Below are positions 1,433 through 28,119 of a stretch of 64,000 nt of DNA, piece by piece. Numbering within the stretch: the stretch's first letter is position 1; every line of letters begins with the position of its first letter. The position numbers were made by a program, and so were the translations under genes. The stretch is from Mollicutes bacterium. GTDB taxonomy: Bacteria > Bacillota_I > Bacilli_A > Izemoplasmatales > Izemoplasmataceae. Where the stretch lies: assembly GCA_003552925.1 (NCBI GenBank), contig PUOX01000030.1:1-64000 (forward strand), written 5' to 3'. Below the pieces are notes generated by a model. The model was not told the origin of the DNA. It made no database searches and was given only the letters and a program-made list of their open reading frames with translations.

Positions 1433-2893
1433 TCACTCTTCAAGCAAGTCTTTGTATTTCACTATCGGTTTACGCGCCGCTCTCGCTTCGTCTAAGCGAC
1501 GTACGGGGGTGGTGTAGGGCGCGTTTTTCAAGATGTCGGGGTCTTCTTTCGCTTCTTTGGCGACTTTCTTCATGGCGTCGATGAAAGCGTCCAAAGTCTG
1601 CTTGGATTCGTTCTCGGTCGGTTCGACCATCATCGTTTCCTTGAACAAAAGCGGGAAATACACGGTCGGCGGATGGATGTCGAAATCAAGGAGACGCTTG
1701 GCGATATCAAGCGTGCGCACGTCGATCGATTCGTCCTTGAGGCCGTCGAAGACGAACTCGTGCTTGCAAATCTTGTCGACGGGGAGCTTGTAGACGTCTT
1801 TGAGCGCGTCCTTGACATAGTTGGCGTTTAGGGTGCTCATCTTCGCAATCTCTTTCATCCGCTCTTTGCCGTTGGTGAGCAAATAGGCATACGCCTTGAT
1901 GACGACGCCGATGTTGCCGAGGAAATGGCTGATTTGGCCGATGGAGTTCTTGCCCTTTCCATCAATCAAGTAAAGGTCGCCGGCCTTGCGGACAACGGGG
2001 GCGGGGAGGAAGGGTTCGAGTTCTTTCGTGACGCCGACCGGGCCGCTGCCGGGTCCGCCGCCACCATGAGGCGTCGAGAAGGTCTTGTGCAAGTTGATGT
2101 GGGTGATGTCGAAGCCCATATCGCCTGGACGGGCGACGCCTAGAAGCGGGTTCAAGTTCGCGCCGTCGTAATAGAGGAGTCCTCCGGCTTCGTGGACGAG
2201 TTTCGAGATTTCAAGAATGTCTTTTTCGAACATGCCGATGGTGTTCGGGTTGGTGAGCATGATGCCGGCGATTTCATCGCTCAAGACTTCTTTGAGGTCG
2301 GGGATGTTGACGGTGCCGTCGCTTTCATTCGACTTGACTTCGACGACTTCAAACCCTGCGACCGAGGCGCTGGCCGGGTTGGTGCCGTGCGCCGAGTCGG
2401 GGACGATGATTTTTTTGCGCTTGTGATCGCCGCGCGATTCGTGGTAGGCTTTGATGATCATCAAGCCCACATGTTCGCCGTGGGCGCCGGCGAAGGGGTT
2501 GAGCGAATACTTCGAAAGCCCGCTGATCTCCGAAAGCATCTTTTGGGTCTCGTAGTAAATCTTCAGCACGCCTTGGACGGTTTCTACCGGCTGGTAGGGG
2601 TGCAGCGACGTGAAGTTCTCGTGCGAGGAAACTTCAAGGTTGATTTTCGGGTTGTATTTCATCGTGCACGAGCCTAAGGGGTAAAACCCTTTTTCGATGC
2701 CGTGGTTTTTGAAGCTGACGTTGGTGTAGTGCCGGACGACATCGAACTCGCTCACTTCGGGAAGTTGCGGACAGTCGCCGCGCTTGTATTTGTCTTCAAG
2801 TTCGTATTCTTTGATCGGACTTTTCGGCAACGTATAGCCTTTGCGTCCTTCTTGCGATTTTTCAAATATCAACTGGCCATAGTATACGGACAT
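1433..2893 (-). CDS. gcvPB: glycine dehydrogenase (decarboxylating) subunit 2, P-protein beta
   Basis: PLP-dependent subunit of the glycine cleavage system P-protein. It decarboxylates glycine and passes the aminomethyl group to lipoyl-GcvH. The 486-residue length matches the family. The PLP lysine is about K270 in HINLHKTFSTPHGGGGPG, followed by the Gly-rich loop. The start ATG at 2893 has a GGGGGAG ribosome site; an in-frame upstream codon at 2926 would overlap gcvPA and lacks one. It is the last gene of gcvT-gcvH-gcvPA-gcvPB and starts 1 nt after the gcvPA stop, so it is probably translationally coupled. The stop is TGA. Confidence 0.96.
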   Translation of the reverse strand: MSVYYGQLIFEKSQEGRKGYTLPKSPIKEYELEDKYKRGDCPQLPEVSEFDVVRHYTNVSFKNHGIEKGFYPLGSCTMKYNPKINLEVSSHENFTSLHPYQPVETVQGVLKIYYETQKMLSEISGLSKYSLNPFAGAHGEHVGLMIIKAYHESRGDHKRKKIIVPDSAHGTNPASASVAGFEVVEVKSNESDGTVNIPDLKEVLSDEIAGIMLTNPNTIGMFEKDILEISKLVHEAGGLLYYDGANLNPLLGVARPGDMGFDITHINLHKTFSTPHGGGGPGSGPVGVTKELEPFLPAPVVRKAGDLYLIDGKGKNSIGQISHFLGNIGVVIKAYAYLLTNGKERMKEIAKMSTLNANYVKDALKDVYKLPVDKICKHEFVFDGLKDESIDVRTLDIAKRLLDFDIHPPTVYFPLLFKETMMVEPTENESKQTLDAFIDAMKKVAKEAKEDPDILKNAPYTTPVRRLDEARAARKPIVKYKDLLEE

Positions 2894-2894
2894 T

Positions 2895-4223
2895 TTATAA
2901 CTCCCCCAGTGTGCGGATGAGTTCATCCATTTGTTCTTTGGTGCGCTTTTCCGTCACCGCGAAGGTGACGAGGTCTTTTTTGTTTTCGTCGAAACGGCCT
3001 TGGGATAGCGGGCCGAGGTAGCCTTTTTCCCGAAGGGCGCGGTTGATCTTCTCGGGGTCCAAAGTCGTCTTCAAGGTGAACTCTTTGAAGAACGGTTTGT
3101 CGAAGGCCTGTTCAAACTGCGGCAGCTTCAGAAGCATGTCGTGGAGGTAGTGCGCGTGGTTGTAGGAAATCTGCTGGGCTTCGTAGACGCCCTTTTTGCC
3201 CATGGTCGCCATGTAGATGGTCACAAAGAGCGCCATGAGGCTCTGGTTCGAACAGATGTTCGAGTTCGCCTTCTCCCGGCGGATGTGTTGTTCGCGCGCT
3301 TGCAAGGTGAGGACGAAGGCGCGCTTGCCGTCTGCGTCTTCGGTGACGCCGCAGATGCGGCCGGGCATCTTGCGCATCAATTTCTTCGTGGTGGCCATAT
3401 AGCCGATGTAGGGCCCGCCATAGGACAGGGGAACCCCTAAAGACTGCGCTTCGCCGACGGCGATGTCGACGCCGTGTTCGGCGGGCGTTTTCAGGTGCGT
3501 AAGCGTCGAGGGGTCGTGGTTCATGATAAAGAGCGCTTTGTGTTCTTTCAAAGCGTCGCTGTACCCTTCGAAATCCTCAATCACGCCGTAGACGTTCGGG
3601 TTTTGCACGATCATGCCCGCGGTCTCGCCGTCCAGTTTGTCTTTTAGGTCCGCAAAATCGGTGGCGCCGTCTTTTTCGTCGACGACGACAATCTCGATGC
3701 CGCGATAGTGCGCATACGTTTTCACCACTTCGATGACGTTGGGGTTCACGGTGGCGCTTATGAGCACGCGGTTTTTCTTGCGCACGCCGGCCGCCATGAA
3801 CATCGCTTCGGCGGTCGCCGTGGCGCCGTCATACATCGAGGCGTTGGAGACATGCATGCCGGTGAGCTGGCAGATCATGCTTTGGTATTCGAAAATGTAT
3901 TGCAGGGTGCCTTGGGACACCTCTGGCTGATACGGAGTGTAGGCGGTCATGAATTCCTGGCGCTCGGTCAAATACGGGATGATGCTGGGCGTGTAATGGT
4001 CGTAAGCGCCCGCTCCCATAAACGGGATGAGCGGTTCGTTCATGCCGGCGAGCTTTTTGAAGTGTTCGCGCAGTTCCATCTCGGAGTGCGAACTGGGCAA
4101 ATCGAGTTCGCATTGCTTGAGCTCGTCGGGAATTTCCGCAAACAAGTCGTCGATCGAATCCACGCCGATGGTTTTCAGCATTTCATCGATGTCTTGGTAG
4201 GTATGCGGCAAATACTTAAACAT
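2895..4223 (-). CDS. gcvPA: glycine dehydrogenase (decarboxylating) subunit 1, P-protein alpha
   Basis: Non-PLP-anchoring half of the split glycine decarboxylase, which forms a heterotetramer with GcvPB. At 442 residues it has the usual family length, and its N-terminus (MFKYLPHTYQDI..EML) is typical. ATG at 4223 is preceded by GGAGG at 7-nt spacing, and that ribosome site lies on the gcvH stop. A TTG one codon earlier is ignored. Splitting P-protein into two chains is usual in Bacillota, Thermotogota and archaea, and contrasts with the single chain of Proteobacteria. Confidence 0.96.
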   Translation of the reverse strand: MFKYLPHTYQDIDEMLKTIGVDSIDDLFAEIPDELKQCELDLPSSHSEMELREHFKKLAGMNEPLIPFMGAGAYDHYTPSIIPYLTERQEFMTAYTPYQPEVSQGTLQYIFEYQSMICQLTGMHVSNASMYDGATATAEAMFMAAGVRKKNRVLISATVNPNVIEVVKTYAHYRGIEIVVVDEKDGATDFADLKDKLDGETAGMIVQNPNVYGVIEDFEGYSDALKEHKALFIMNHDPSTLTHLKTPAEHGVDIAVGEAQSLGVPLSYGGPYIGYMATTKKLMRKMPGRICGVTEDADGKRAFVLTLQAREQHIRREKANSNICSNQSLMALFVTIYMATMGKKGVYEAQQISYNHAHYLHDMLLKLPQFEQAFDKPFFKEFTLKTTLDPEKINRALREKGYLGPLSQGRFDENKKDLVTFAVTEKRTKEQMDELIRTLGEL

Positions 4224-10195: not shown

Positions 10196-10219
10196 AAAAC
10201 GTCCGAAATCGGACGTTTT
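10196..10219 (-). terminator. terminator of the first ABC exporter pair
   Basis: Ten-bp stem AAAACGTCCG / CGGACGTTTT with a 4-nt loop and trailing T on the minus strand. It overlaps the TAA stop of the ABC gene. Confidence 0.85.
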
Positions 10220-12038
10220 AGTTGATGAGTGCGGTTTCTTTGAACTGGTTGGTGTAAAGCTGGTAATAGTGGGCGCGGTTGTGCAAGAGTTCTTCGTGCG
10301 AACCGGCTTCGATGATTTTTCCGTGTTCGAGGACAAGGATTTTGTCCGCGTTGACTATCGTCGAGAGCCGGTGCGCGATGACAAAGGAAGTTCGTCCGCG
10401 CATGATCACTTCGATGGCTTTTTGGATTTTTTGCTCGGTCGCGGTGTCGACGGAGCTCGTGGCTTCGTCTAGGATGAGAATCGCCGGGTCTTTGATGAGG
10501 GCGCGGGCGAAACTGATGAGCTGCTTTTGGCCGACGCTCAAGCGCGAACCGCCTTCTTGCACCTCGGTGTCGTAGCCCTTTTCAAATGAGCTTATGAACT
10601 CGTGCGCGCCGACAAGTTTCGCAGCCTCGACGATTTCCTCTTCGCTGGCGTCAAGCTTGCCGTAGCGGATGTTTTCCCGGATGGTGCCGCTGAAGAGTTG
10701 CGGGGATTGCAGCACATAGCCCAAATTGCCGTGCAGCCAGCTCATGGAGCGTTCTTTATAGTCTTTGCCGTCGATGAGGATTTTCCCCTCGGTAGGCTCA
10801 TAAAACCGGCAAATCAGATTGACGATGGTGCTTTTCCCCGCGCCGGTGTGACCGACCAAAGCGACGGACTCGCCGGCCTTGACATGCAAGTTGAAGTCGT
10901 CTAAGACCTGTTCGCCTTTTTTGTATTTGAACGAGATGTTCTCAAACTTGACATCGCCATGCAAGGGCTCCCAGTTTTCCTTTTTCGGATTCAAGATGGT
11001 GCCGTAGCGTTCGATGACTTCCGGTGTGTCTTTGATGTCGGGGTCGGCGTCGATCAAGCTGACGACGCGCTCGGCGCTCGCTTGGGCTTGTTGGAAGTGG
11101 GCGATGGTGTTCGCAAGCTGCATGATCGGATCGAAAAACTGCGCGACGTAACTCACAAACACATACAAAAGCCCCACTTGGATGACCTGGTCGCGGACAT
11201 CGAGTCCGCCGAAGTAAAAGACCAGCGCCGTGGCGATCGCGGCGATGAACAAGATGGTCGGAAAATAGAGCCCCGCGAACATCGCCGCGCGAATCGAGTG
11301 CTTCTTCATCTTGGATGTGAGCATGTCGAAATCCTGGTAGTTGCTGTCTTCAAGCACGAGCGTTTTGGTGGTCTTCGCGCCGCCGATGCCTTCGTTGAAG
11401 GCCCCGGTGATTTTCGAGTTTTGCTTGCGGATGCTGCGGTAGGCTTTGAGGATTTTCTTGCGGAAATACAGACTCAAATACACAAGCACCGGCAGGACGC
11501 TTAATACAATCAAGGCCAGCTGCCAATGCAAAATGAGCATCACGACCGCAAGGCCGATCATCATCAAGCCGCCCCAAGTGATGTCGATAAGTCCCCAGGA
11601 GATCATGTCGGAAAGCTGGCGCGAGTCGCTCGTCATTCTTGCCATGATCCATCCGGCGGGCGTCCGGTCGTAATACGAAAAGGGAAGCTCTTGAAGCTTT
11701 TTGAACGCCTTTTGGCGGATGGTGTAGGCTAGGTGGTTTTGCACCTTTTCGGCAAAATAGATGAACGTGTAGACAAGCAGACCCATAAAGAGCATGAACA
11801 AGACATACACGCCGATGAACCACGGAAGCATCGTCAAGTCCTCGTTTTCGATGATGTAGTCGATTCCGTAACGGTTGATCAAAGGGTACGCCAAATCGGC
11901 GACGGCGAGAAAGACGCCGCACAGCACAACAATCACCGCGTAGCGACGCAGAGGTTTCATGAAGGAGAAGATTCTTTTCCACGTTTTCGTGTCAAATTCC
12001 TTTTTGGCGAACGTTTCTTCCTCAAAATGCTGCATCAT
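10218..12038 (-). CDS. ABC exporter, canonical half of heterodimer (YheH/BmrD type)
   Basis: A 606-residue half-transporter: six-helix membrane domain (about 30-320) then a nucleotide-binding domain. Walker A is GHTGAGKST, and Walker B LILDEATSSVD has the catalytic Glu. The signature is non-canonical (LSVGQ). The partner upstream has the reverse pattern, so together they form one active and one degenerate ATP site, as in BmrCD, LmrCD and TM287/288. ATG 12038 (or 12035) follows AAAGGAGG and lies inside the end of the upstream gene, so the two are translationally coupled. Likely drug or lipid export; the substrate is unknown. Confidence 0.92.
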   Translation of the reverse strand: MMQHFEEETFAKKEFDTKTWKRIFSFMKPLRRYAVIVVLCGVFLAVADLAYPLINRYGIDYIIENEDLTMLPWFIGVYVLFMLFMGLLVYTFIYFAEKVQNHLAYTIRQKAFKKLQELPFSYYDRTPAGWIMARMTSDSRQLSDMISWGLIDITWGGLMMIGLAVVMLILHWQLALIVLSVLPVLVYLSLYFRKKILKAYRSIRKQNSKITGAFNEGIGGAKTTKTLVLEDSNYQDFDMLTSKMKKHSIRAAMFAGLYFPTILFIAAIATALVFYFGGLDVRDQVIQVGLLYVFVSYVAQFFDPIMQLANTIAHFQQAQASAERVVSLIDADPDIKDTPEVIERYGTILNPKKENWEPLHGDVKFENISFKYKKGEQVLDDFNLHVKAGESVALVGHTGAGKSTIVNLICRFYEPTEGKILIDGKDYKERSMSWLHGNLGYVLQSPQLFSGTIRENIRYGKLDASEEEIVEAAKLVGAHEFISSFEKGYDTEVQEGGSRLSVGQKQLISFARALIKDPAILILDEATSSVDTATEQKIQKAIEVIMRGRTSFVIAHRLSTIVNADKILVLEHGKIIEAGSHEELLHNRAHYYQLYTNQFKETALIN

Positions 12039-13836
12039 CACCGCCTCCTTTCTTCGCTTCGAATTCTTGCGCGATTTTCGTTTGCTGATGATAGAGTTCC
12101 GCATAAAGGCCGTCTTCTTCCAAAAGCGTATCGTGCGTGCCTTGGGCGATGATTTCGCCGCGGTCGAGCACGATGATCTTGTCCGCTTCCATGGCGGTGG
12201 TGATGCGGTGGGTGATGATGAACACGGTTGTGTTTTGCCAATGCTTGTAAAGCGCTCTGCGGATTTGGATGTCGGTCTCGGTATCGACGGCGCTTAAGGA
12301 GTCGTCAAAAATCAAGACGGGTTTCGGGTCCAAAAGCATCCTGGCAATGGCGAGGCGTTGTTTTTGCCCGCCGCTCAGCGTGACGCCGCGTTCGCCCACA
12401 AGGGTGTCGTACCCGGCTTCGAAATCTTCGATGTCGTCGTGGACTCTCGCAATGTTGGCGGCGTCGATGATGCGTTCTTTGGGGACGTCGCGTTTGATGA
12501 TGCCGATATTGTCGTAAACACTTTTCGAATACAAGAACGGTTCTTGCAAAACGATGCCGACGTTTTTACGAAGATGCTTTTTATTGATGGTGCGGATGTC
12601 GTGGCCGTCGAACATTATCCGCCCTTGTTGATTGTCAAGCAATCGGACCATCAAATTCATCAGCGTACTTTTACCGCTTCCGGTCTTGCCGATGACGGCC
12701 AAGGTTTCTCCGGCCTCCACTTCAAAACTGACATTCTTAAGGAGCGGCTTGTTGTCGTCGACGAATTGAAAGCCGACGTTGTCAAACGTAATCTGCCCCT
12801 TGATTTCAGGCTTAAAATCCGAATCGTCGTCGTGTTCGCTACGTTCGGCCATAATTTCGTCAATCCTGTCCAAAGCGACGGTGGTCTTTCCAAAATCGCC
12901 AACGATTCGGCCAAGCTGCCGCAGCGGCCAAACAATCAAACCGAGCAGGCTCAAAAACGCGATGAACTGTCCCGTGTCAAGCGTTCCGTTCACGGCGAAA
13001 TAAATCCCAAACGATGCGGTCAACGCGTATTGCGCGAAAATCAGCAAGTCGGTCCCGCCCCAGAAAAACGCCATGACACGTGTCAGTCTCATGCTTTCGT
13101 CGCGGAATTTCGTCGACGTTTCGTCGAATTTCTCCATTTCAAATTGCTCGTTCGCAAACGCCTTGACGACACGATTTCCGGTAACGTTTTCCTGGACCGC
13201 GGTCGTCATCTCGCCCTCTGCTTCTTCAACGCGCTGAAAGATTTTTCGCACGTAAGTGAAATACACCAGCGCGCTGATAAAGATGATGGGGGCCATCGCC
13301 AGTGATATCATTGTCATCCGCGGGTTCATCCGCGTCATCTGATACACCGCGAACACCATCAAAAACAAAAGCCTCAGCACATCGATCAGCTGTTCGCCGA
13401 TGAAACGGCGGTAAGTGTCGACGTCGGTTGTCGTCCTTTGAATCAAATCGCCGGTGTCGGCTTGCGAATGGTACGTGAACGACAAATTTTGCAACCGGTC
13501 GTAAAGGGTGTTGCGCATATTGTAGGCGGTGCGTTCGGTGAACACCGCAAAGATGACGCGTTCGACAAACACAAACGTCAAGCGGAAGAGCGCAAAGCCC
13601 ACCGAAAAAATCGCCACGAGCAGCAGTTGACGCTGCACGGTGTCGGCCATCAGCCAATCCGCGACGAATTGCGGAAGCGCCGAAGGCCTGCCCGCGAAAA
13701 CAGTGTCGACAATGTGCTGCACAAAAAGCGGCGTCAGCGTCCTAAAATATTGCAAGAAGAAAAGCAGCAGCATGCCGATGATGTATAGATGCAACTGTCC
13801 TTTCATCCATTTAGTGAATTGTTTGAGTCGTTTCAT
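12022..13836 (-). CDS. ABC exporter, degenerate-site half of heterodimer (YheI/BmrC type)
   Basis: A 604-residue half-transporter with Walker A GKTGSGKST, intact signature LSGGQ and Walker B LIFDDSLSAVD, in which Asp replaces the catalytic Glu. The H-loop His is present (ITHRITT). This is the catalytically impaired subunit of a heterodimeric exporter. It is the first structural gene after a leader with a small ORF and an intrinsic terminator, an arrangement known to control bmrCD in Bacillus subtilis. ATG 13836 has AGAGGTG upstream. Confidence 0.92.
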   Translation of the reverse strand: MKRLKQFTKWMKGQLHLYIIGMLLLFFLQYFRTLTPLFVQHIVDTVFAGRPSALPQFVADWLMADTVQRQLLLVAIFSVGFALFRLTFVFVERVIFAVFTERTAYNMRNTLYDRLQNLSFTYHSQADTGDLIQRTTTDVDTYRRFIGEQLIDVLRLLFLMVFAVYQMTRMNPRMTMISLAMAPIIFISALVYFTYVRKIFQRVEEAEGEMTTAVQENVTGNRVVKAFANEQFEMEKFDETSTKFRDESMRLTRVMAFFWGGTDLLIFAQYALTASFGIYFAVNGTLDTGQFIAFLSLLGLIVWPLRQLGRIVGDFGKTTVALDRIDEIMAERSEHDDDSDFKPEIKGQITFDNVGFQFVDDNKPLLKNVSFEVEAGETLAVIGKTGSGKSTLMNLMVRLLDNQQGRIMFDGHDIRTINKKHLRKNVGIVLQEPFLYSKSVYDNIGIIKRDVPKERIIDAANIARVHDDIEDFEAGYDTLVGERGVTLSGGQKQRLAIARMLLDPKPVLIFDDSLSAVDTETDIQIRRALYKHWQNTTVFIITHRITTAMEADKIIVLDRGEIIAQGTHDTLLEEDGLYAELYHQQTKIAQEFEAKKGGGDDAAF

Positions 13837-13867
13837 GATGTCTCACCTCTTCGTGGTTCGATCCAAT

Positions 13868-13905
13868 AAAAAAACGCCCCTTCTATCCAACGATAAAAGG
13901 TGGCG
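13868..13905 (-). terminator. leader attenuator upstream of the ABC exporter pair
   Basis: On the minus strand a 13-bp stem (CGCC, one bulged A, CCTTTTATC / GATAGAAGG, GGCG, one G-U pair) with loop GTTG runs into seven T, about 30 bases before the ABC start codon. It sits in the leader, so it must be read through for expression. Upstream CTATCCA (13962-13968) can pair with TGGATAG (13883-13889) of the 3' arm and loop, and AGGGTG (13949-13954) with CACCTT of the 5' arm. Confidence 0.75.
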
Positions 13906-13940
13906 CGAAAAGATTGCGGCATGACGGGGTTAGCGCATGC

Positions 13941-14018
13941 TCAAAATGCACCCTCAAAAGATGGATAGTACGTCGTATTCGGTTGTGCCTTTTTAGGACG
14001 AATGTTCCATACAGTCAT
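13941..14018 (-). CDS. candidate leader peptide of the ABC exporter operon
   Basis: A 25-residue ORF (MTVWNIRPKK... ending YYPSFEGAF, TGA stop) lies between the operon promoter and the attenuator. A weak GCGGTGA ribosome site sits before ATG 14018; an alternative ATG at 14036 would give 31 residues but has no ribosome site. Its last codons contain both segments able to pair with the terminator arms, so ribosome position on this ORF would decide termination. That is the logic of the BmrB leader in B. subtilis. I infer the regulatory role from position and pairing, not from sequence similarity. Confidence 0.6.
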   Translation of the reverse strand: MTVWNIRPKKAQPNTTYYPSFEGAF

Positions 14019-14058
14019 GGCAATCACCGCTTTCATTGAATGTGTGTCGCACAAAAAA

Positions 14059-14087
14059 AGTCTATCACATCTTTTGTGAAATGTAAA
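14059..14087 (-). promoter_or_regulatory. promoter of the leader/ABC operon with internal inverted repeat
   Basis: -35 TTTACA (14082-14087), 17-bp spacer, extended -10 TGATAGACT (hexamer 14059-14064). The spacer holds a perfect inverted repeat TCACA-N5-TGTGA (14065-14079), a possible operator. The stretch 13837-14104 otherwise holds only the leader peptide and attenuator. Confidence 0.6.
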
Positions 14088-14104: not shown

Positions 14105-14126
14105 AGCCCTGTTGTGCGACAGGGCT
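14105..14126 (-). terminator. terminator of the soluble GGDEF gene
   Basis: Eight-bp stem AGCCCTGT / ACAGGGCT, 6-nt loop, then a T run on the minus strand. It overlaps the TAG stop. Confidence 0.85.
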
Positions 14127-15039
14127 ATTTTTTGTAGACAACGTTTCCTTTTCCATTGCGTTTGGCTTCGTACATCGCCTCGTCGCTTATTTGCAGGAGC
14201 GTATCAAAATCCATGCAGTTGCTGTCTAGAGGAATGACGCCGATAGAAGCCGTAAGATGGACGGTGCAAGGTCCCAATTCGATGTTTTGAAACTTCTTAG
14301 TCAAATCACGGGCAAACTCCAAGGCTTCTTTATGCGAGTCCGTCCGCATGACGACAAAGAATTCATCGCCGCCGATGCGGTAAAAGCGAAGGCTTTTTCG
14401 TTGATGTTTTTTCAGCCGTTTCGCCACCTTTTCGAGCGCGCGGTCTCCGTAATAGTGCCCGTATAGGTCGTTGATTTCTTTGAAGTCGTCCATGTCGATG
14501 AACATCGCGTAATGCTTCGCGTTTGTCTTCAGTCGCATGATGTGCTGTCTCAAGGCTTCGCGGTTGTAAAGGCCGGTAGGGTCGTCGGTGTGGGCGGTTT
14601 TGTAGAGTGTCATGCTGAAAGGTTCGTTTTCGTGGATGTGGACCACTTCGCCGCCAAACGCATCAAATCCTTCGTTCGTCTTGCCTAAAGGGTACACTCT
14701 CACCAACAACCATAAAGGAGCGTCTTCTCTTTTAATCGGCAACAAAAAGACATTGGTCGACGCTTCGGGGTGAAAGTTTCTTTTTAAATGTCGGAGGTAA
14801 TCTTCGGTGCCCAAGATTTCGGTAAAAATGGTGTCAAGATCTATTCGTTGTTGGAATTCACTGCATGTAAAGGAGGCCTGCGAAGGCAACCCGATTGCCC
14901 GTGGCTCACCCCTGACGACATGAACAACCATCTCATCTTTCTTTTGAATCGCCAAAAACTGCAAAAAACGCGAATCTTCGGAGATGGTCGCCCGGCCACC
15001 GACCACCGTTTTCTTTAGCTGTTCTAAAGTTTTGCTCAT
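14125..15039 (-). CDS. cytoplasmic GGDEF protein (putative diguanylate cyclase)
   Basis: A 304-residue protein without membrane segments. The N-terminal half (about 20-140) has a PAS-like sensor fold with no clear ligand motif. The C-terminal GGDEF domain (about 150-304) has intact RIGGDEFF and the upstream Asp-rich metal site (FIDMDDFKEIND), so it can be an active diguanylate cyclase. No RxxD inhibitory-site motif is obvious. ATG 15039 is preceded by GGGGGAT. It is transcribed alone from a clear promoter and ends in a terminator. Confidence 0.88.
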   Translation of the reverse strand: MSKTLEQLKKTVVGGRATISEDSRFLQFLAIQKKDEMVVHVVRGEPRAIGLPSQASFTCSEFQQRIDLDTIFTEILGTEDYLRHLKRNFHPEASTNVFLLPIKREDAPLWLLVRVYPLGKTNEGFDAFGGEVVHIHENEPFSMTLYKTAHTDDPTGLYNREALRQHIMRLKTNAKHYAMFIDMDDFKEINDLYGHYYGDRALEKVAKRLKKHQRKSLRFYRIGGDEFFVVMRTDSHKEALEFARDLTKKFQNIELGPCTVHLTASIGVIPLDSNCMDFDTLLQISDEAMYEAKRNGKGNVVYKK

Positions 15040-15113: not shown

Positions 15114-16982
15114 TTACTCGAATTGTGCTTGATAAAGATTGTAGTAAAAACCTTTTTGCTCGAGCAAGCTTTCATGGGTGCCGGTTTCGATCAAGCGTCC
15201 TTGGTGGATGACAAGAATCTTGTCCGCCTTTTGGATGGTCTGCAGACGGTGGGCAATGACGATGCTTGTCCTACCTTCCATCAACAAATTCATGCTTTTT
15301 TGGATTTTGGCCTCGGTGCGGGTGTCGACGTTGGAAGTGGCTTCGTCCAAAATCAGCAAGTCCGGGTTCGAAAGAATGCTGCGGGCGATGCTGATAAGCT
15401 GCCGTTCGCCCTGGGAGAAGTTTTGCCCGCCTTCATGAATCTCGGTGTCGTAGCCTTTGGGCAGCTTGACGATGAAATCATGCGCGCCGGAGAGTTTGCT
15501 TGCGCGCAGCACCTCTTCTTCGGTGGCGGAAAAATCGCCGTAGTGGATGTTGTCGAAAACGCTGCCTTTGAACAGTTGCGTGTCTTGCAACACGACGCCG
15601 ATTTTCTTGCGAAGTTCGTCGCGTTTCATGTCGCGGATGTCGACGCCGTCAAGCTTGATGGTGCCCGAGAGCACATCGTAAAAACGATTGATGAGCTTGA
15701 TGGTGGTGGTTTTTCCGCCGCCTGTTGGACCGACGATGGCGATCAGTTCGCCTTTTTGGGCTTTGAAGGTGACATCGCGGAGCACCAACACGTTTTCGTC
15801 ATAGCCGAAATTCACATCGTCGAACTCGATCTCGCCGTTCAAAGAATCCACGGATATCTCACCGTCGCTTGCGTATTCGCTGTCGGCATCGATGATTTCA
15901 AACACGCGTTCCGCGCCCGCTACGCCCTGCATGAGCGCGTTGAAAAGCTGTGCGAGGTTGCTGATGGGCATGATGAACTGGCGCGAATACTGCGAGACGC
16001 CGGCGATTTGTCCGATGGTTAGAACTCCCGTGGGCAAATACAGATAGAGGAGCGCGCCGACGCCGACGACGCTTAGGAAAATCAAGTTGTTCATAAAATG
16101 GATGAACGGCCAAATGAGCCCCGAATAGAATTGCGCCATGAAGCCCGCTTTTTTCAGTTTGTCGTTTTCAATGCGAAAATCTTCGATGAACGGCTCTTCT
16201 TGGTTGTATAGTTTCACCGTCTTAAGTCCGGAGACGTTTTCTTCGATGATGCCGTTGAGGCTCGCGAGATGGATTTGCTGTTCTTTGAAGCCTTTGCGCG
16301 TCTTTTTGGAAATCTTCACCGTGAACAGCACCATCAGCGGAATGAAAGCCACCACGATGAGCGCAAGCATCCAGTTCAGGTAAAACATGAACACAAAGGC
16401 GCCGAGGATGACGATGGAAGAGTTCAAAACTTCCAACACGGTTTGACCGAGAGAGTTGCTGATGAGTTCGACGTCGTTGGAGATGCGGCTGACGATGTCG
16501 CCGCTGCCGAGCTTGTCGTAATAGGAGACGGGGGTCTTCATCAACTTGCCAAACGCGTCGCTACGCAGTTTTTTGACCACTTTTTGCGACACGCGCGCCA
16601 TCAAGAATCTTGAGAGGAACCGCACCATGCTGTTGATTAAGGCCAAAAAGACGATGATCAAACCGATACGGTAGACGCCCTCGAAATCGAAGACCAAAAT
16701 GTAATCGTCGAGCGCGACGCTGAAAAGAATCGGCACCAGCAAAAACATGAGCGTAGAAACGACCAACGCGAGGAAAATAAAAATCAACGCGAAGCGATAG
16801 GCGCCCATGTACGAAAGCAAGCGGAACACCGTTTGGCGGATGTTTTTCGGTTTCGCGCCGACCGGAGGGCCGCCGCGCATGCGGCCGCCTCTTCTTGGCG
16901 CATGCGTTGGTGAAGTCGGGTCGATTTTCTTTTTCAGTTTTTCGTTAAGTTCCCGTTTGGTAAGAATCTTCGAATCGCTCAC
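15114..16982 (-). CDS. ABC exporter, canonical half of the TetR-linked heterodimer
   Basis: A 622-residue half-transporter. An N-terminal extension rich in Arg/Gly/Pro (about 20-45) precedes the membrane domain. Walker A is GPTGGGKTT, Walker B LLILDEATSNVD is catalytic, the signature is non-canonical (FSQGE), and the H-loop His is present. I placed the start at GTG 16982, which has AGGAGG at 8 nt; an earlier GTG at 16991 touches the ribosome site and cannot use it. It overlaps the upstream ABC gene by about 38 nt, implying coupling. Third gene of tetR-ABC-ABC. Confidence 0.9.
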   Translation of the reverse strand: MSDSKILTKRELNEKLKKKIDPTSPTHAPRRGGRMRGGPPVGAKPKNIRQTVFRLLSYMGAYRFALIFIFLALVVSTLMFLLVPILFSVALDDYILVFDFEGVYRIGLIIVFLALINSMVRFLSRFLMARVSQKVVKKLRSDAFGKLMKTPVSYYDKLGSGDIVSRISNDVELISNSLGQTVLEVLNSSIVILGAFVFMFYLNWMLALIVVAFIPLMVLFTVKISKKTRKGFKEQQIHLASLNGIIEENVSGLKTVKLYNQEEPFIEDFRIENDKLKKAGFMAQFYSGLIWPFIHFMNNLIFLSVVGVGALLYLYLPTGVLTIGQIAGVSQYSRQFIMPISNLAQLFNALMQGVAGAERVFEIIDADSEYASDGEISVDSLNGEIEFDDVNFGYDENVLVLRDVTFKAQKGELIAIVGPTGGGKTTTIKLINRFYDVLSGTIKLDGVDIRDMKRDELRKKIGVVLQDTQLFKGSVFDNIHYGDFSATEEEVLRASKLSGAHDFIVKLPKGYDTEIHEGGQNFSQGERQLISIARSILSNPDLLILDEATSNVDTRTEAKIQKSMNLLMEGRTSIVIAHRLQTIQKADKILVIHQGRLIETGTHESLLEQKGFYYNLYQAQFE

Positions 16983-18738
16983 TTCGCCCACCTCCTATGT
17001 CAAGCTGGCTTGCGGCAATCTCTTGGTATACCGGACTCTTTTTCATCAGTTCGTCGTGGGTGCCGACGCCGTCGATGCGGCCGTCGTTGTTGACGACGAT
17101 GATTTTGTCCATCCTGCGGACGGTGGCGACTTTTTGTGAAATCAAGATAAGCGTCGGCTCATAGGGCAAAGCGTCGATATGCGCGAGAATGCTGCGTTCG
17201 CTTTCGGCGTCGACGGCGCTCGTCGCGTCGTCGAATATCAAAATCGGCGGACGCTTGATGAGCGCGCGGGCGATGGACAAACGCTGTTTTTGGCCGCCGC
17301 TCAAATTCACGCCCTTGCTTAGGACGAGATGGTTGTAATGCTCGTCTTGTTCGTGGATGAAATCGTTCAACAAGGCTTGTTTCGAAGCTTCTTCAAGTTC
17401 GCTGAACCCCGCGTCTTCTTTCCCTTGCCGGATGTTCGTGGCGATCGAGCCGCTAAAAATCGTGGCGTTTTGCGTCACAAACCCGACGCTGTCGCGGAGT
17501 TGCTTCAAATCGTAGTTGTCCACCGCGACGCCGTCGATCAAGACTCTTCCCCGGGTCGTGTCGTAAAGCCTCGGAATCAGGTTCACCAACGTGCTTTTCC
17601 CGCTGCCGGTGGAACCGATGACGCCGACCTTTTCACCCTGCGCGATGGTGAAGTTGACGTCTTCGATGACTTGATTCCCGCCGTTGCCGTAGCCGAAACT
17701 CACATCGTCAAAGACGATTTCGCCTTGAATGGTGCGGTCGGTGGGGTCTTTCGGGTTTTCAAGGTCGATCTTCGCGGAAAAGATCTCGTTGATTCTCGCG
17801 GCGCTGACGTTCGCCCGACTTAAGAAAATCATAATCATCGCAAACATCATCAACCCGACCAGAATTTGCTGGCTGTACGAGTTGAACGCCATCAGCACGC
17901 CGACTTGCGGAATGCCAAGCGGGCTGATGAATTCGCCTTGCAACATGTAATACGCTCCAAAAAACAAAATCAGCGACACTCCGACGGTGAAGATGAAGTT
18001 GATGACGGGGTCGGCGAATGCCATCACCGTTTCCGCGCCCGTATTGGCTTGGCGGTAGTTTTCGTTGGTGCGCTCGAAACGTTCGTTCTCATGGGGTTGC
18101 GTGACGAACGATTTGACCACTTGCGGCGAATTCGCGTTTTCAAGCACGACGTTGTTCAAGTCGTCAAGCGCATATTGCACCTTTTTGAACCGCGGGTAGG
18201 CGTTGATCATGATGATGATGACGGCGATGACGAGCAACGGCATGGTGATGTAGAAGACCTGGCTCAAAAGGAACGACGTCCGCAGCGCCAAAATAAGGCC
18301 CATCACAATCATCAAAGGCGCACGGATGACAATGCGGAGCATCATGGTGAAAAACATCTGCACCCGCAGCACGTCGTTCGTGGCGTTGGTGATCAGACGC
18401 GACGCTTTGAAATCGTCGACGTTTTTGAACGACAGCTCCTGAATCTTGCGGAAAAGATCCAAACGAAGCGAGGCGGTTGCGTATTGCGAGATGTATTGCG
18501 AAGTATAGGTGTTGATCACGCCGCTCGCAATCCCCAAAAACGCCATCCCCAGCATGATAAGCGCCGTGTTGACCACGGCGTCAAACGCACGCTCGGGCAG
18601 CGCGACGTCGATGATGTCAATCATCAAAAAGGGAATGTAAAAGCTGACAAAGACCTGTACGAACATCGTGGCGATTGAAATCCATATGTAGCCCTTGTAG
18701 GGGGCGGCGTATCGAAGCAGTCTCAGTATATGGCTCAT
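16945..18738 (-). CDS. ABC exporter, degenerate-site half of the TetR-linked heterodimer
   Basis: A 597-residue half-transporter. Walker A is GSTGSGKST and the signature LSGGQ is intact. Walker B LIFDDATSAVD carries Asp for Glu, and the H-loop His is also lost (LISQKVAT), so this subunit is more degenerate than the equivalents in the two other pairs. The ATG at 18738 overlaps the tetR stop as ATGA. Likely partner of the 15114-16982 product in a drug exporter that the TetR protein would regulate. Confidence 0.9.
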   Translation of the reverse strand: MSHILRLLRYAAPYKGYIWISIATMFVQVFVSFYIPFLMIDIIDVALPERAFDAVVNTALIMLGMAFLGIASGVINTYTSQYISQYATASLRLDLFRKIQELSFKNVDDFKASRLITNATNDVLRVQMFFTMMLRIVIRAPLMIVMGLILALRTSFLLSQVFYITMPLLVIAVIIIMINAYPRFKKVQYALDDLNNVVLENANSPQVVKSFVTQPHENERFERTNENYRQANTGAETVMAFADPVINFIFTVGVSLILFFGAYYMLQGEFISPLGIPQVGVLMAFNSYSQQILVGLMMFAMIMIFLSRANVSAARINEIFSAKIDLENPKDPTDRTIQGEIVFDDVSFGYGNGGNQVIEDVNFTIAQGEKVGVIGSTGSGKSTLVNLIPRLYDTTRGRVLIDGVAVDNYDLKQLRDSVGFVTQNATIFSGSIATNIRQGKEDAGFSELEEASKQALLNDFIHEQDEHYNHLVLSKGVNLSGGQKQRLSIARALIKRPPILIFDDATSAVDAESERSILAHIDALPYEPTLILISQKVATVRRMDKIIVVNNDGRIDGVGTHDELMKKSPVYQEIAASQLDIGGGRSERFEDSYQTGT

Positions 18739-19349
18739 GTCTTCTCACTCCTCGCGCCCTCTTCGATCAAACCGACAAAGAACAGATAGTCGCTATAGGC
18801 TTCGCTGTAACGCGCTTCGTCGCGAAGCACCTTTTGGATGAACTGCATTTTAAGATGCGCGAGCAGTCGGAAAATTTTCATGCACTTCTCGGTTTCAAAC
18901 GCCTGCAGCGACTCGTCGCGGAAATGGTGAAGCAAGTGCTCGAAAAAACGGTCCCTGCGGCGCTCGAAGTAGTCGATGTCAAGCCCCGCACCTTGCCTTT
19001 CTCGCAAAAACTTGCGAATCAAGGCATGGTCGTTCGACTCTTTCAAATACCGGTAGTCTTTCGCGAAAGAGGCGCGGTAATAATCGAAAACCGAACTCTC
19101 CTCGCTTAAGCGGAGGCGTTCATAAAGCATGTCCTCATACGCGGATAGAGATAGTTCGAAAACATGCTTGTAAAGGTCTTCCAGATCTTCAAAATACTGA
19201 TAGAAGCTCCCGCGCGGAATGTTGGCGGCGGAGACGATGGCGCTGATGGTGATCTCCGCGTAAGGGGTGTGCAAAAACACCTTCCTGGCGGCTTCTTCAA
19301 TGCGTTTTTGTTTTGAGGGCGATAGCGCTTCAAACGTTTTTGTGGGCAT
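18735..19349 (-). CDS. TetR-family repressor of the adjoining ABC exporter
   Basis: A 204-residue TetR-type regulator. It has an N-terminal helix-turn-helix (about 12-60, ITISAIVSAANIPRGSFYQYFED) and a divergent C-terminal ligand domain. ATG 19349 has GGAGG at 6 nt. It heads the operon tetR-ABC-ABC with a 4-nt overlap, so it probably represses itself and the exporter. A 13-bp palindrome lies directly upstream, and the identical 13-mer occurs in the promoter of the MATE pump 12 kb away, suggesting one regulator for both. Confidence 0.9.
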   Translation of the reverse strand: MPTKTFEALSPSKQKRIEEAARKVFLHTPYAEITISAIVSAANIPRGSFYQYFEDLEDLYKHVFELSLSAYEDMLYERLRLSEESSVFDYYRASFAKDYRYLKESNDHALIRKFLRERQGAGLDIDYFERRRDRFFEHLLHHFRDESLQAFETEKCMKIFRLLAHLKMQFIQKVLRDEARYSEAYSDYLFFVGLIEEGARSEKT

Positions 19350-19867: not shown

Positions 19868-21277
19868 TCAAGTTTGTGTACTATTTGTTTTGGGGGCGAA
19901 GGTTTGCAACACCGCGTTTAACGACATTGGGCGGTAAAAAAAATAGCCTTGGGCGAAGTGCACGGGCATTTGCTTGACGATTTCGTAATCGTCGGGGAGT
20001 TCGATACCTTCGACGATGGTGGCGATGCCGAAGTTTTCGGCAAGTTTCACCATTGTATCGACTAACGCTCGGTTGTTTTTGTCGATGGCGATGTTGTGGA
20101 TGAACATGCGATCGATTTTGATGCGGTCGATTTGGTTTTTGGAAAGGCGCATCAAAGAAGAATATCCTGTCCCGAAATCGTCAATGGCGACTTTGAAGTT
20201 GCGGCTTCTCAACTTTTCGATGAAGACCGCCTCTTCTTCCATGCCGCGGGGATCTGTGGTCTCGGTGAATTCCACAATGATGCGTTTGGGGTCCAGTTTG
20301 AGCCTTTTGGTGGTGGCGACGAGATGGTCGATGAAGTCGAGGTTGTAGATCTCCTGCGAAGATATGTTGATGGAGAGGAACTCGATGGGCACATTGGCGT
20401 CGCGGATTTTGCGGAAGGACTCCAAGGATCTTTCCACGACGTAGTAATCGATTTCTTCGATCATGTTGTAACGTTCGGCGTATTCGATGATGTCGGCGGG
20501 GAAATGGATTTTGTATTTGTCCTGGATGCGGATGAGCGATTCAAGGCCTACGGGTTTTTCTGTGTCCAAATCGACGATGGGCTGAAACTCCAAATAGAAC
20601 AGTTCGTTTTTCAAAGCGTCCTTGATGGATTGAAACATCCGAAACGAATCCTGGTTTTCTCTTCGCAAGTCGCTCGAATAGGCGATGACCCTGTCCTTGC
20701 CTCGGGATTTGGCGGCTTGCAGGGCGAGTTCGCTGCGAAAAACGCATTCGTAGTAGCGGGGGCGCTTTTCGGGTATGTCGTAGCGTCCGGCCGAGACCGT
20801 GAGACGGATTTCGTAATCCTCAACAAGAAACGGCTCTTTCAACCCTTGCAATAAATTCTTCGAAAAGGCTTCGTGTTCGCTTTTCGGATGCAACACGATA
20901 AAGCGGTCCGAATGGACGCGGTAGACATGCGTGTAGGGGGCGCAAAGCTCTTCCAGCCGCCGCGCGAATTCATAGAGCAGACGATTGCTCAAATTGATGC
21001 CAAAGAGGTCGTTGTGGTTTTTGAAGTTGTCGATGTTCAAATAATACATCGAAACCTCAGAATCGAAATCCGGCAGCGAATCGGCGAAAAAGCGTTCCAA
21101 ATAGGTGCTTTTTTTCAGCTCGGTCAGCTCGTCGATGTAAAGGAGCTTGCGGTACCGCCTTACGGCACGCATGCGAAAGGCGGTGATGACGGCAAGCACC
21201 GCCAAAAGCGCCGCAAAAACCGCGCTTAAAAGCCATGGCGGCCAATAGATTCCGTTGTTCAGCAAATTCGCGTGCAT
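19868..21277 (-). CDS. membrane protein with degenerate GGDEF and intact EAL domain (c-di-GMP phosphodiesterase)
   Basis: A 469-residue protein. One membrane helix (about 14-34) is followed by a GGDEF domain whose active loop has become HSDRF, so cyclase activity is not expected. The EAL domain (about 220-460) keeps its key motifs: ESLIR, INISSQ, VEFTET, DDFGTGYSSL, IKIDR, EGIE and AQGYFF. It is therefore a probable c-di-GMP phosphodiesterase, perhaps with a regulatory GTP site in the dead GGDEF. ATG 21277 has GAAGG at 6 nt; the ATG at 21283 abuts the ribosome site. It follows the aldo/keto reductase by 25 nt. Confidence 0.9.
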   Translation of the reverse strand: MHANLLNNGIYWPPWLLSAVFAALLAVLAVITAFRMRAVRRYRKLLYIDELTELKKSTYLERFFADSLPDFDSEVSMYYLNIDNFKNHNDLFGINLSNRLLYEFARRLEELCAPYTHVYRVHSDRFIVLHPKSEHEAFSKNLLQGLKEPFLVEDYEIRLTVSAGRYDIPEKRPRYYECVFRSELALQAAKSRGKDRVIAYSSDLRRENQDSFRMFQSIKDALKNELFYLEFQPIVDLDTEKPVGLESLIRIQDKYKIHFPADIIEYAERYNMIEEIDYYVVERSLESFRKIRDANVPIEFLSINISSQEIYNLDFIDHLVATTKRLKLDPKRIIVEFTETTDPRGMEEEAVFIEKLRSRNFKVAIDDFGTGYSSLMRLSKNQIDRIKIDRMFIHNIAIDKNNRALVDTMVKLAENFGIATIVEGIELPDDYEIVKQMPVHFAQGYFFYRPMSLNAVLQTFAPKTNSTQT

Positions 21278-21302
21278 AGTCATCCTTCTTTCATGAGTCG
21301 GG

Positions 21303-24132: not shown

Positions 24133-25905
24133 CTATTGGTCTTGGTATTGAAGCTGGTACAAGTAATAATAATGGCCTTTTTGCTGGAGCAATTCCTGGT
24201 GGTTGCCCTGTTCGATGATTTCGCCTTGCTGAAGGACGATGATTTTGTCGACATGCTGAATCGTCGAAAGGCGATGGGCGACAATCAACATCGTGCCGAT
24301 GTTCATCATTTTCTTCATGGACTCCTGAATCAGCTCTTCGGTCTCGGTGTCGATGTTTGCTGTGGCCTCATCAAGAATCATGATGCTCGGTTTGTGCACC
24401 AGCGTACGCGCAAAGCTGATCAGCTGCCTTTGGCCCGCGGAATAGTTGTTGCCGCGTTCGCGCACCTTTTCGTAATACTTGTTCGGCAGTTTTTCAATGA
24501 ACCGATGCGCGTTGACGTATCGGCAGGCCTGCTTCACTTGTTCTTCGGTGATGGATTCGTCTCGTAGCGTGATGTTCGACATGATGGTTCCGCTGAACAT
24601 GAAAACATCTTGAAGCATCTGGCCGATATGGGCGCGAAGGCTTGAAATCTTGATGTTGCGAATGTCGATGCCGTCTAACAAAATTTGCCCGTGTTGAATG
24701 TCGTAATTTCTGCACAAAAGGCCGAGGATAGTGGTCTTTCCGGCGCCGGTCGCGCCGACGAAAGCCACGGATTCTTTGGCGTTCACTTTGAAACTGACGT
24801 CTTTTAAAACCCATTCGTCTTTTTTGTAGGCGAACCAGACATTTTTGAACTCAATCTCGCCGCGCACTTCGTCAAGTTCAATCGCATCGGGGCGGTTGAC
24901 CACTTCGGGGTGGTTGTCCAAGATGGCGAAAATCCTTTCGCTTGAGGCAAACGCCGACTGTACGATGTTGAACTGCTCGGCGAGTTGCTGGATGGGCTCG
25001 AAAAAGCGGCGCAGATAGTTGTAAAACGCCACAAGCGTACCGACGGTCAGTGTGCCGGCGATGACCTGCATGCCGCCGAAGTAGAAAATGATGATGGTTG
25101 CGATCATGAAGAGCATATAGACCGTGGGACGGTAAATCGCAAAGACGAGCAGCTCGCGAAGCTCGCTTCGTTTGAGTTCCGTGTTCTTCTCGTCGAATTC
25201 TTCGTGTTTGTCGGGTTCTTTGTTGAAAATTTGTACGACTTTCATCCCCGATAGATGTTCGGCCAAGAATCCGTTGACGCGTGACATGTTTGCGCGAACG
25301 GCCCTGTAGGCTTTGCGCGAGAACCTGCGGAAAATGAACGAAAACAATATGATGAAGGGGATGACCGTGAGAACCAAAAGCGCCAAACGGACATTCAGAA
25401 GGAGCATCGCCGTCATGATGCCGATAATCATCAACAGATTCCTGAAAACGTTGACGACGACGTTTGTGTACATCTCGTTCAACGTGTTGGTGTCGTTGGC
25501 GATGCGGGTGACGAGCTTGCCGGTCGGAATGGAATTGAAGTATTCGATGTCCTGGCGTTCGACATGCGTGAACACTTCTTCGCGCATGTTGTAGATGATG
25601 GTTTGGCCCGTCTTTTGCAGGATGATGGTTTGCAAATACTCAAACAATGCACTCAACAAGATCGACGCGACGAACAACGCCAAAATCCGAAAGAGGAACG
25701 TCGTATCGATTGGAATTTCGGTCAGCGTGTCGACGCTCAAACCGATGATGAAAGGTTCAAGCAGCGCAAACATCACCGATAGCACCATCAAGAAGAATGT
25801 GACGACGAAAGCGGGGATGTAGGGTTTCGCATACGACATGAGCCGTTTCAAGATGGCTTTGTCGGAGTACTGATGCAGTCTTTGGTCTGTGTCAATGTCG
25901 TACAT
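24133..25905 (-). CDS. ABC exporter, canonical half of the MarR-linked heterodimer
   Basis: A 590-residue half-transporter: six-helix membrane domain (about 20-310) and a nucleotide-binding domain with Walker A GATGAGKTT, catalytic Walker B IMILDEATANID, H-loop AHRLST and non-canonical signature YSAGQ. Its ATG directly follows the TAA of the upstream ABC gene (no gap), with GGAGGTGGAG as ribosome site. Last gene of marR-ABC-ABC. Probable multidrug export. Confidence 0.92.
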   Translation of the reverse strand: MYDIDTDQRLHQYSDKAILKRLMSYAKPYIPAFVVTFFLMVLSVMFALLEPFIIGLSVDTLTEIPIDTTFLFRILALFVASILLSALFEYLQTIILQKTGQTIIYNMREEVFTHVERQDIEYFNSIPTGKLVTRIANDTNTLNEMYTNVVVNVFRNLLMIIGIMTAMLLLNVRLALLVLTVIPFIILFSFIFRRFSRKAYRAVRANMSRVNGFLAEHLSGMKVVQIFNKEPDKHEEFDEKNTELKRSELRELLVFAIYRPTVYMLFMIATIIIFYFGGMQVIAGTLTVGTLVAFYNYLRRFFEPIQQLAEQFNIVQSAFASSERIFAILDNHPEVVNRPDAIELDEVRGEIEFKNVWFAYKKDEWVLKDVSFKVNAKESVAFVGATGAGKTTILGLLCRNYDIQHGQILLDGIDIRNIKISSLRAHIGQMLQDVFMFSGTIMSNITLRDESITEEQVKQACRYVNAHRFIEKLPNKYYEKVRERGNNYSAGQRQLISFARTLVHKPSIMILDEATANIDTETEELIQESMKKMMNIGTMLIVAHRLSTIQHVDKIIVLQQGEIIEQGNHQELLQQKGHYYYLYQLQYQDQ

Positions 25906-27696: not shown

Positions 27697-27699
27697 GTC

Positions 27700-28119
27700 T
27701 TACACCTGCCCTATTTTGTCAAACAGACGCACAAGGGTCTGAAGTTCTTGGTTGTCTAAGCGGGAAAATATCTTTTCCATCGCCTTGTTGCTCTCTAACA
27801 CATTCGTCTTCGCAAGAAGCTTGCCGCGTTTTGTGAGCGTGATGTTGTACACTCTCGCATCGTCTTTGCACCGCTTCTTTTCAATCAGTCCGGTCTCTTC
27901 AAACGTCCGGATGGTCTCGGTCACGGTCGGCTTCGACAGATTAAAAATCTGCGCGATTTCGCTCATCGTGACAGATTCACGCTTGTCAATTTCGCGCAAA
28001 TAACGAAATTGGCGGTCGCTGACGTTTTTCAAATCAAGGTCTTCATAGACTTCGCGGCAACTGTTGAAATACATTTTTAAAAACGCGTTGAAGGAGTCGC
28101 GGAAACGTTCCTTGTCCAT
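27700..28119 (-). CDS. MarR-family regulator of the adjoining ABC exporter
   Basis: A 139-residue winged-helix regulator of the MarR type, with recognition region MSEIAQIFNLSKPTVTETIRTFEETGLI and wing around KRCKDDARVYNITLT. ATG 28119 follows GGGAGGGG. First gene of marR-ABC-ABC. A perfect inverted repeat lies just downstream of its -10 box, so it most likely represses its own operon and is released by a drug-like ligand. Confidence 0.92.
   Translation of the reverse strand: MDKERFRDSFNAFLKMYFNSCREVYEDLDLKNVSDRQFRYLREIDKRESVTMSEIAQIFNLSKPTVTETIRTFEETGLIEKKRCKDDARVYNITLTKRGKLLAKTNVLESNKAMEKIFSRLDNQELQTLVRLFDKIGQV

Follow-up and report, generated by a model that had tools for sequence, protein, structure and literature searches.

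What controls an ABC exporter operon that begins behind a short open reading frame (ORF) and a terminator? This question is raised by a locus within a 64,000-nt stretch of DNA (positions 1 to 64,000 of contig PUOX01000030.1, hereafter the window) from a Mollicutes bacterium of the family Izemoplasmataceae. A preliminary description of the window had read the region as a leader peptide and attenuator controlling a BmrCD-type exporter. Here, we examine the exporter, the leader and its counterparts in related genomes, and weigh the possible modes of control. Coordinates of the features are given in Table 1.

Table 1. Features of the leader, the exporter operon and neighbouring regulatory genes in the window
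Feature	Position	Strand	Remarks
Attenuator leader and exporter operon (predicted)	10218-14087	-	leader lies between GGDEF gene and ABC genes
Promoter (predicted)	14059..14087	-	-35 TTTACA (14087-14082), 17-nt spacer, extended -10 TG-A-TAGACT ending at 14059
SD-like sequence of leader ORF	14024..14030	-	GCGGTGA; from sequence
Leader ORF (putative), 25 codons	13941..14018	-	MTVWNIRPKKAQPNTTYYPSFEGAF, then stop; holds R7-P8-K9 (R/K-X-R/K)
AUGGA of codons 3-5, candidate anti-antiterminator	14006..14010	-	predicted pairing with UCCAU (13965-13961) in ribosome-free fold; candidate known from the window's leader
Antiterminator 5' arm at ORF end (predicted)	13949..13968	-	CUAUCCA (13968-13962) and GAGGGUG (13955-13949); nascent fold and comparison
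Post-stop hairpin GCAUG...CAUGC (predicted)	13919..13940	-	nested within antiterminator; nascent-transcript fold
Intrinsic terminator (predicted)	13868..13906	-	stem 13906-13874, T run 13874-13868; 13903-13884 partners the antiterminator arm
ABC exporter subunit 1, 604 aa	12022..13836	-	Walker B VLIFDD, degenerate; start ATG at 13836
ABC exporter subunit 2, ~607 aa	10218..12041	-	Walker B LILDE, signature LSVGQ
TetR-type gene	18735-19349		beside exporter pair
MarR-like gene	27700-28119		beside exporter pair; by eye

The exporter and its surroundings

Both exporter subunits contain the Pfam domains PF00664 (ABC_membrane) and PF00005 (ABC_tran). In the Walker B motifs, read by eye from the translations, subunit 1 has Asp (IFDD) and subunit 2 the usual Glu (ILDE). 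Judged by these sequence features, the pair is a putative heterodimeric ABC exporter with one degenerate site, of the type represented by TM287/288, TmrAB and BmrCD. The designation "BmrCD-type" fits only loosely. The best bacterial PDB relatives of subunit 2 were, in this order, TM288, TmrA and YheH. When the pair was compared with solved structures, YheH scored 354 bits, with TM287/288, TmrAB and Sav1866 as close or closer, and YheI was not among the best 60 matches (i.e. below 275 bits). The window's best match to YheI/YheH (BmrC/BmrD) of Bacillus subtilis is instead another pair, at 24133-27696 (405/417 bits).

Three ABC-exporter pairs are found within 18 kb of the window (10218-13836, 15114-19349 and 24133-28119), and they appear to have three types of control, namely a TetR-type gene, a MarR-type gene and the attenuator. 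Upstream, the leader is adjoined by a GGDEF gene (14125-15039) that has a terminator of its own. This gene and a GGDEF-EAL gene (19868-21283, by eye) both adjoin exporters in a small wall-less genome, the assembly of which has 1.28 Mb and is 73% complete. Named relatives of the exporter, with 63-90% identity, come from MAGs listed as Candidatus Izimaplasma, Mollicutes or Acholeplasmatales bacterium, hence from wall-less bacteria resembling Izemoplasma. A first cultured isolate of Izemoplasma has been reported (PMC8397711).

The leader in the window

The promoter, the 25-codon ORF and the seven-T terminator that had been described before the ABC genes were all present on the minus strand. As expected of an attenuator, the putative leader ORF with its SD stands behind a promoter of its own, and the predicted intrinsic terminator lies between this ORF and the structural gene. 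The terminator stem has 14 predicted pairs, including one G-T, and one bulge (-20.4 kcal/mol), and is followed by seven T. From the T run to the ATG of the exporter there are 31 nt; no promoter was found in this interval, so that the exporter probably depends on read-through. The complementarity of the ORF end to the terminator arms, also noted previously, was confirmed: CTATCCA (13968-13962) is complementary to TGGATAG of the terminator loop and 3' arm, and in the 5' arm CACCTT is the partner of AGGGTG (13954-13949), one of the pairs being a G-U. The leader matched no family of Rfam release 15 at the gathering score, and a Pfam search with the 25-aa leader peptide gave no match.

Taken alone, the window offers little beyond chance. 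Terminators exceeded the expectation (6 found in 1 kb versus 1.1 +/- 1.2 in shuffles), the promoter was at chance level (1 found versus 1.2 expected from shuffles), and the pairing that joins the ORF end to the loop and 3' arm of the terminator did not reach significance (z -0.29, p 0.34). Folding of the nascent transcript gave p 0.055 by pair count and 0.14 by energy. The complementarity of the arms is therefore close to chance in the window alone and significant only by comparison with relatives; since only the terminator exceeds chance here, the finding stands or falls with this comparison.

Folding of the leader in both ribosome states had been suggested as a check, and at full length it showed no switch: the terminator had a probability of 0.93-0.99 whatever the ribosome covered, and it was 6.5 kcal/mol better than the best alternative. 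A thermodynamic switch was rejected for the window's full-length leader, as the terminator wins every state at equilibrium. In the stalled state, the antiterminator was preferred until about 10 of the 14 nt of the terminator 3' arm were out; it joins CUAUCCA to UGGAUAG and GAGGGUG to the 5' arm, as had been drawn in the preliminary description, and comprises 14 pairs in the transcript ending 7 nt into the 3' arm. Because the antiterminator is favoured only before the point at which these 10 nt are out, control would have to be kinetic. When the leader is folded without a ribosome, AUGGA (codons 3-5) is predicted to pair with the UCCAU of the antiterminator arm and transcription to terminate, so that induction should need both initiation and early stalling.

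Occurrence of the leader in related genomes

Orthologues of the exporter were present in 44 of the 49 genomes of the window's family. A leader ORF (16-34 codons) and a terminator directly preceded the orthologous exporter at 24 loci in nine genera, a count to be read with the caveat that ORF starts and terminators were chosen by rule from the tested sequences, which favours finding the layout. A reading of the exporters in six genera (g6, g7, g9, g11, g12 and g17) as leaderless was rejected: there the exporter is preceded by an ABC-F gene, and the leader stands ahead of that gene. At this site, 14 leaders with promoter, SD, ORF and terminator were found. Across all 38 analysed leaders from 15 genera, the ORFs at the equivalent position have 16-36 codons. 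The leader ORFs of relatives likewise have SD-like sequences ahead of them, and of the 23 exporter-linked leaders with upstream sequence available, 20 have a promoter with an extended (TG) -10 and a spacer of 17 nt. The gene upstream of the leader varies among relatives while the promoter-leader unit is retained. The terminator core (at most one mismatch) occurs in one copy per matching genome, always at the attenuator's exporter. Leader peptides hardly match between genera and are alike only within close groups.

The one ABC-F protein from upstream of an exporter that was tested in full matches NCBIfam NF000355, ribosomal protection-like (502 bits versus a cut-off of 380). In the window's own incomplete (73%) genome, ABC-F matches were found only away from the locus, with identity of at most 31%. 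The operon structure suggests that the ribosome-protection-like ABC-F and the exporter act together.

Two more leaders emerged from a pattern search, a fifteenth one of the ABC-F type (L096) and one that stands before a GNAT acetyltransferase gene (L098). The latter, at 1400-1700, is a second leader copy in genome G031 and stands before a gene with an N-terminal GNAT domain (1731-3086), which is thus a possible second target of the leader switch. Outside the window's family, the form in which the SD pairs with the antiterminator arm (see below) was absent from the pattern search of 395 class genomes, save one match; this lies within a DinB-like frame and was dismissed by eye as chance. In genomes of the sister family f3 the leader is absent, and a gene read by eye as argS ends just before the exporter. 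At one locus (L073, genome G006), a TetR-type gene similar to that at 18735-19349 of the window precedes the exporter, with a terminator-like hairpin between them, and at another (L074, genome G005) no clear leader was recognised.

Conservation of the predicted antiterminator pairing

Transcripts ending 7 nt into the terminator 3' arm were folded, and the minimum-energy fold was taken. In 34 of the 38 nascent folds, the ORF end paired with the terminator 5' arm, the loop and the start of the 3' arm. This antiterminator gave the lowest energy in 22 of 24 exporter leaders (11-21 pairs) and 12 of 14 ABC-F leaders (13-20 pairs); little or no antiterminator was formed by L036, L037, L084 and L085. 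With a ribosome placed at the stop codon, the terminator formed in all 38 leaders. The comparison of leaders of homologous exporters proposed earlier has thus borne out both the layout (24 leaders, nine genera) and the pairing of the arms (22/24).

Dinucleotide-shuffled ORF ends paired worse than the natural ones (Stouffer z -7.4 for the 24 exporter leaders). When relatedness was allowed for, z was -7.5 on the 15 genus means and -5.4 with each genus represented by its worst leader. Neither the opening 45 nt of the ORF (z -0.2) nor the stretch behind the stop codon (z +1.0) showed such pairing. Cognate arms had -16.7 kcal/mol versus -14.5 +/- 0.6 for swapped arms (0/20,000 permutations), a difference to which base composition adds. 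Pair types vary at almost every position, which serves as illustration, the pairs having been chosen by folding. A MAFFT alignment of 20 leaders was discarded, as it misaligned the arms, and an alignment anchored on the arm start was used in its place. On this fixed alignment of 13 leaders, 82.7% of cells paired, versus 38-55% when slid by 1-3 columns, and double-sided changes were found in 6 cells versus 2.5 expected from shuffles. Together, comparison and nascent folds point to a predicted antiterminator that uses leader-ORF sequence and excludes the terminator, although not at the full-length equilibrium of the window's leader.

Additional RNA elements in the leaders of relatives

Complementarity between the SD region (GGUGAUGG) and the antiterminator arm (CCAUCAC, at the end of the ORF) is seen in most relatives; Stouffer z is -9.0 over the 14 ABC-F leaders and -7.3 over 23 exporter leaders. 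In the window's leader, this pairing is missing (z +2.2). The SD region of the relatives is therefore predicted from these sequences to be a natural anti-antiterminator, which an initiating ribosome would remove. Leaders of nine genera also contain a run of 5-8 U starting 46-57 nt after the start codon, and in 8 of 24 leaders a U tract comes right after a hairpin of 5-7 bp, versus 1.0 in shuffles. In L016, L017, L015, L020, L022, L024, L060 and L061, hairpin and U tract lie within the ORF, 33-40 nt after the start codon, and the stem sequence changes. Perhaps these elements represent an RNA-polymerase pause site; no such U tract was present in the window's leader. In L080, the RNA stretch UUUUUUGUCAUGCAAAAA, the code for FFVMQK in most leaders of the ABC-F type, has been retained, although a different frame is read. 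This hints that the RNA rather than the peptide may be under selection.

With somewhat less than even confidence, we propose that these leaders constitute a family-wide sensor of Izemoplasma-like bacteria, in which the peptide would be nearly free while the RNA is kept. The SD would double as anti-antiterminator, so that antitermination would need initiation as well as a stalled ribosome, and the U tract roughly 50 nt downstream of the start codon (nine genera) may pause the polymerase and so synchronise it with the ribosome. The switch would have been attached to the exporter, to ABC-F plus exporter and to one GNAT gene, and the window's leader would be a derived form, its codons 3-5 replacing the SD pairing.

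Proposed mechanism and alternative explanations

We conclude that the exporter operon is very probably preceded by a ribosome-mediated transcription attenuator that is induced by ribosome stalling. The earlier reading of leader ORF, terminator and ORF-end antiterminator as an attenuator thereby gains the support of 38 leaders from 15 genera. What has been computed in its favour is the layout, its conservation, the order of the competing structures and the compensatory pairing; we infer that the ORF is translated and transcription terminated in the cell, and likewise the kinetic trapping and the identity of the inducer. Transcription would start about 33-40 nt before the leader ORF. A ribosome translating freely to the stop codon would cover the inner arm AGGGUG, the terminator would fold, and RNA polymerase would stop at 13868. 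If a ribosome initiated but stalled early (at codons ~1-9), it would open the pairing of codons 3-5 and free CUAUCCA...GAGGGUG; the freed arm would then capture the emerging terminator 5' arm, the loop and the first bases of the 3' arm, termination would fail within a short time window, and the exporter operon would be read. With no ribosome, the arm would be sequestered and transcription would terminate. The natural inducer is probably an antibiotic that acts on the ribosome and to which the operon contributes resistance, as judged from the exporter and its ABC-F company.

A different trigger might act through the same architecture. The peptide could sense the drug itself by nascent-chain arrest, carrying the macrolide/ketolide motif R/K-X-R/K as in the erm(K), mef(E) and tlrB leaders; this motif has been described as a stall signal for these drugs (PMC8298421, PMC6851288), and an msr(C) leader MTASMKLR... 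has been listed (PMC4335068). The motif is present in 11 of 24 exporter leaders versus 6.1 expected (p 0.011), and within the first 12 residues in 8 of 24 versus 2.4 expected, but its carriers are related and cluster in few genera. The motif at codons 7-9 of the window's leader and the MIKLR with which several relatives begin are suggestive only, the carriers being related, and L009, the exporter of which is 90% identical, lacks the motif. Only a fraction of such motifs stall (PMC6851288). We regard specific arrest as less likely than not. Alternatively, attenuation could respond to general slowing of translation (amino-acid shortage, cold or (p)ppGpp) instead of antibiotics. That peptides hardly match between genera would be expected if any slow ribosome served. 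However, none of the leaders has many codons for any one amino acid, trp-type codon runs are absent, and the controlled genes are a drug-exporter-type pair together with, in six genera, a ribosome-protection-like ABC-F. General slowing therefore seems an unlikely signal.

Two further explanations dispense with leader translation as the sensor. The terminator might be constitutive and leaky and merely lower exporter expression, the ORF being incidental, in keeping with its dominance in all states of the window's full-length leader. This is very unlikely in view of the ORF position, the antiterminator arm and its covariation with the terminator, which are kept while primary sequence is not. Conserved alternative structures would also be compatible with a protein- or ligand-binding RNA of the riboswitch type, but no Rfam family matches the leader, the arm lies inside an ORF with SD, and the SD itself pairs with the arm in most relatives, making this explanation highly improbable.

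If the stall-induced attenuator is real, antibiotic-responsive ribosome-mediated attenuation extends to uncultured, wall-less, mostly environmental bacteria, with some 40 natural variants of one switch in related species. Given that the peptide changes while covariation is kept in the antiterminator, experiments should be able to distinguish specific arrest peptides from sensing of stalls in general. Our literature search returned no paper joining Izemoplasma with leader peptides. Given this and the absence of a matching Rfam family, it may be regarded as a hitherto unlisted switch with an anatomy of its own within a known kind of control.

Comparison with known systems

The classical trp-type attenuator comprises a terminator, an antiterminator and a sequestering 5' helix, and terminates when translation does not take place. 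The window's leader shares this logic, including the predicted termination without translation, and differs in that the leaders described here contain no run of regulatory codons. Like bmrBCD of B. subtilis, the locus couples a heterodimeric ABC exporter to an upstream leader ORF, a terminator and an antiterminator; in bmrBCD, leader translation is needed for induction, and Reilman et al. described the bmrB antiterminator as less favourable than its terminator (PMC4191407). However, the bmrB terminator lies inside the 162-bp bmrB ORF, whereas that of the window is placed 34 nt after the stop (13941) of a 25-codon ORF, and the attenuator's exporter is not the closest BmrCD relative in the window.

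The erm(K) and mef(E)/mel leaders resemble the present ones in having a short leader peptide, R/K-X-R/K in some members, a terminator before the resistance gene and distal antiterminator pairing (PMC4335068). Their peptides are conserved (MTHSMRLR and MTASMRLR, respectively), whereas in the Izemoplasma-like leaders the peptides diverge and the pairing is conserved. Finally, tlrB (yxjB) of B. subtilis likewise combines a leader peptide with a terminator. Stalling of the ribosome averts termination, and the mechanism includes pausing of RNA polymerase (PMC6851288); the U tract of many relatives could serve likewise as a pause. In tlrB, it is the stalled ribosome as such that blocks the terminator hairpin, while translation is controlled by a second hairpin; in the leaders described here, the predicted block is an antiterminator built from the ORF end.
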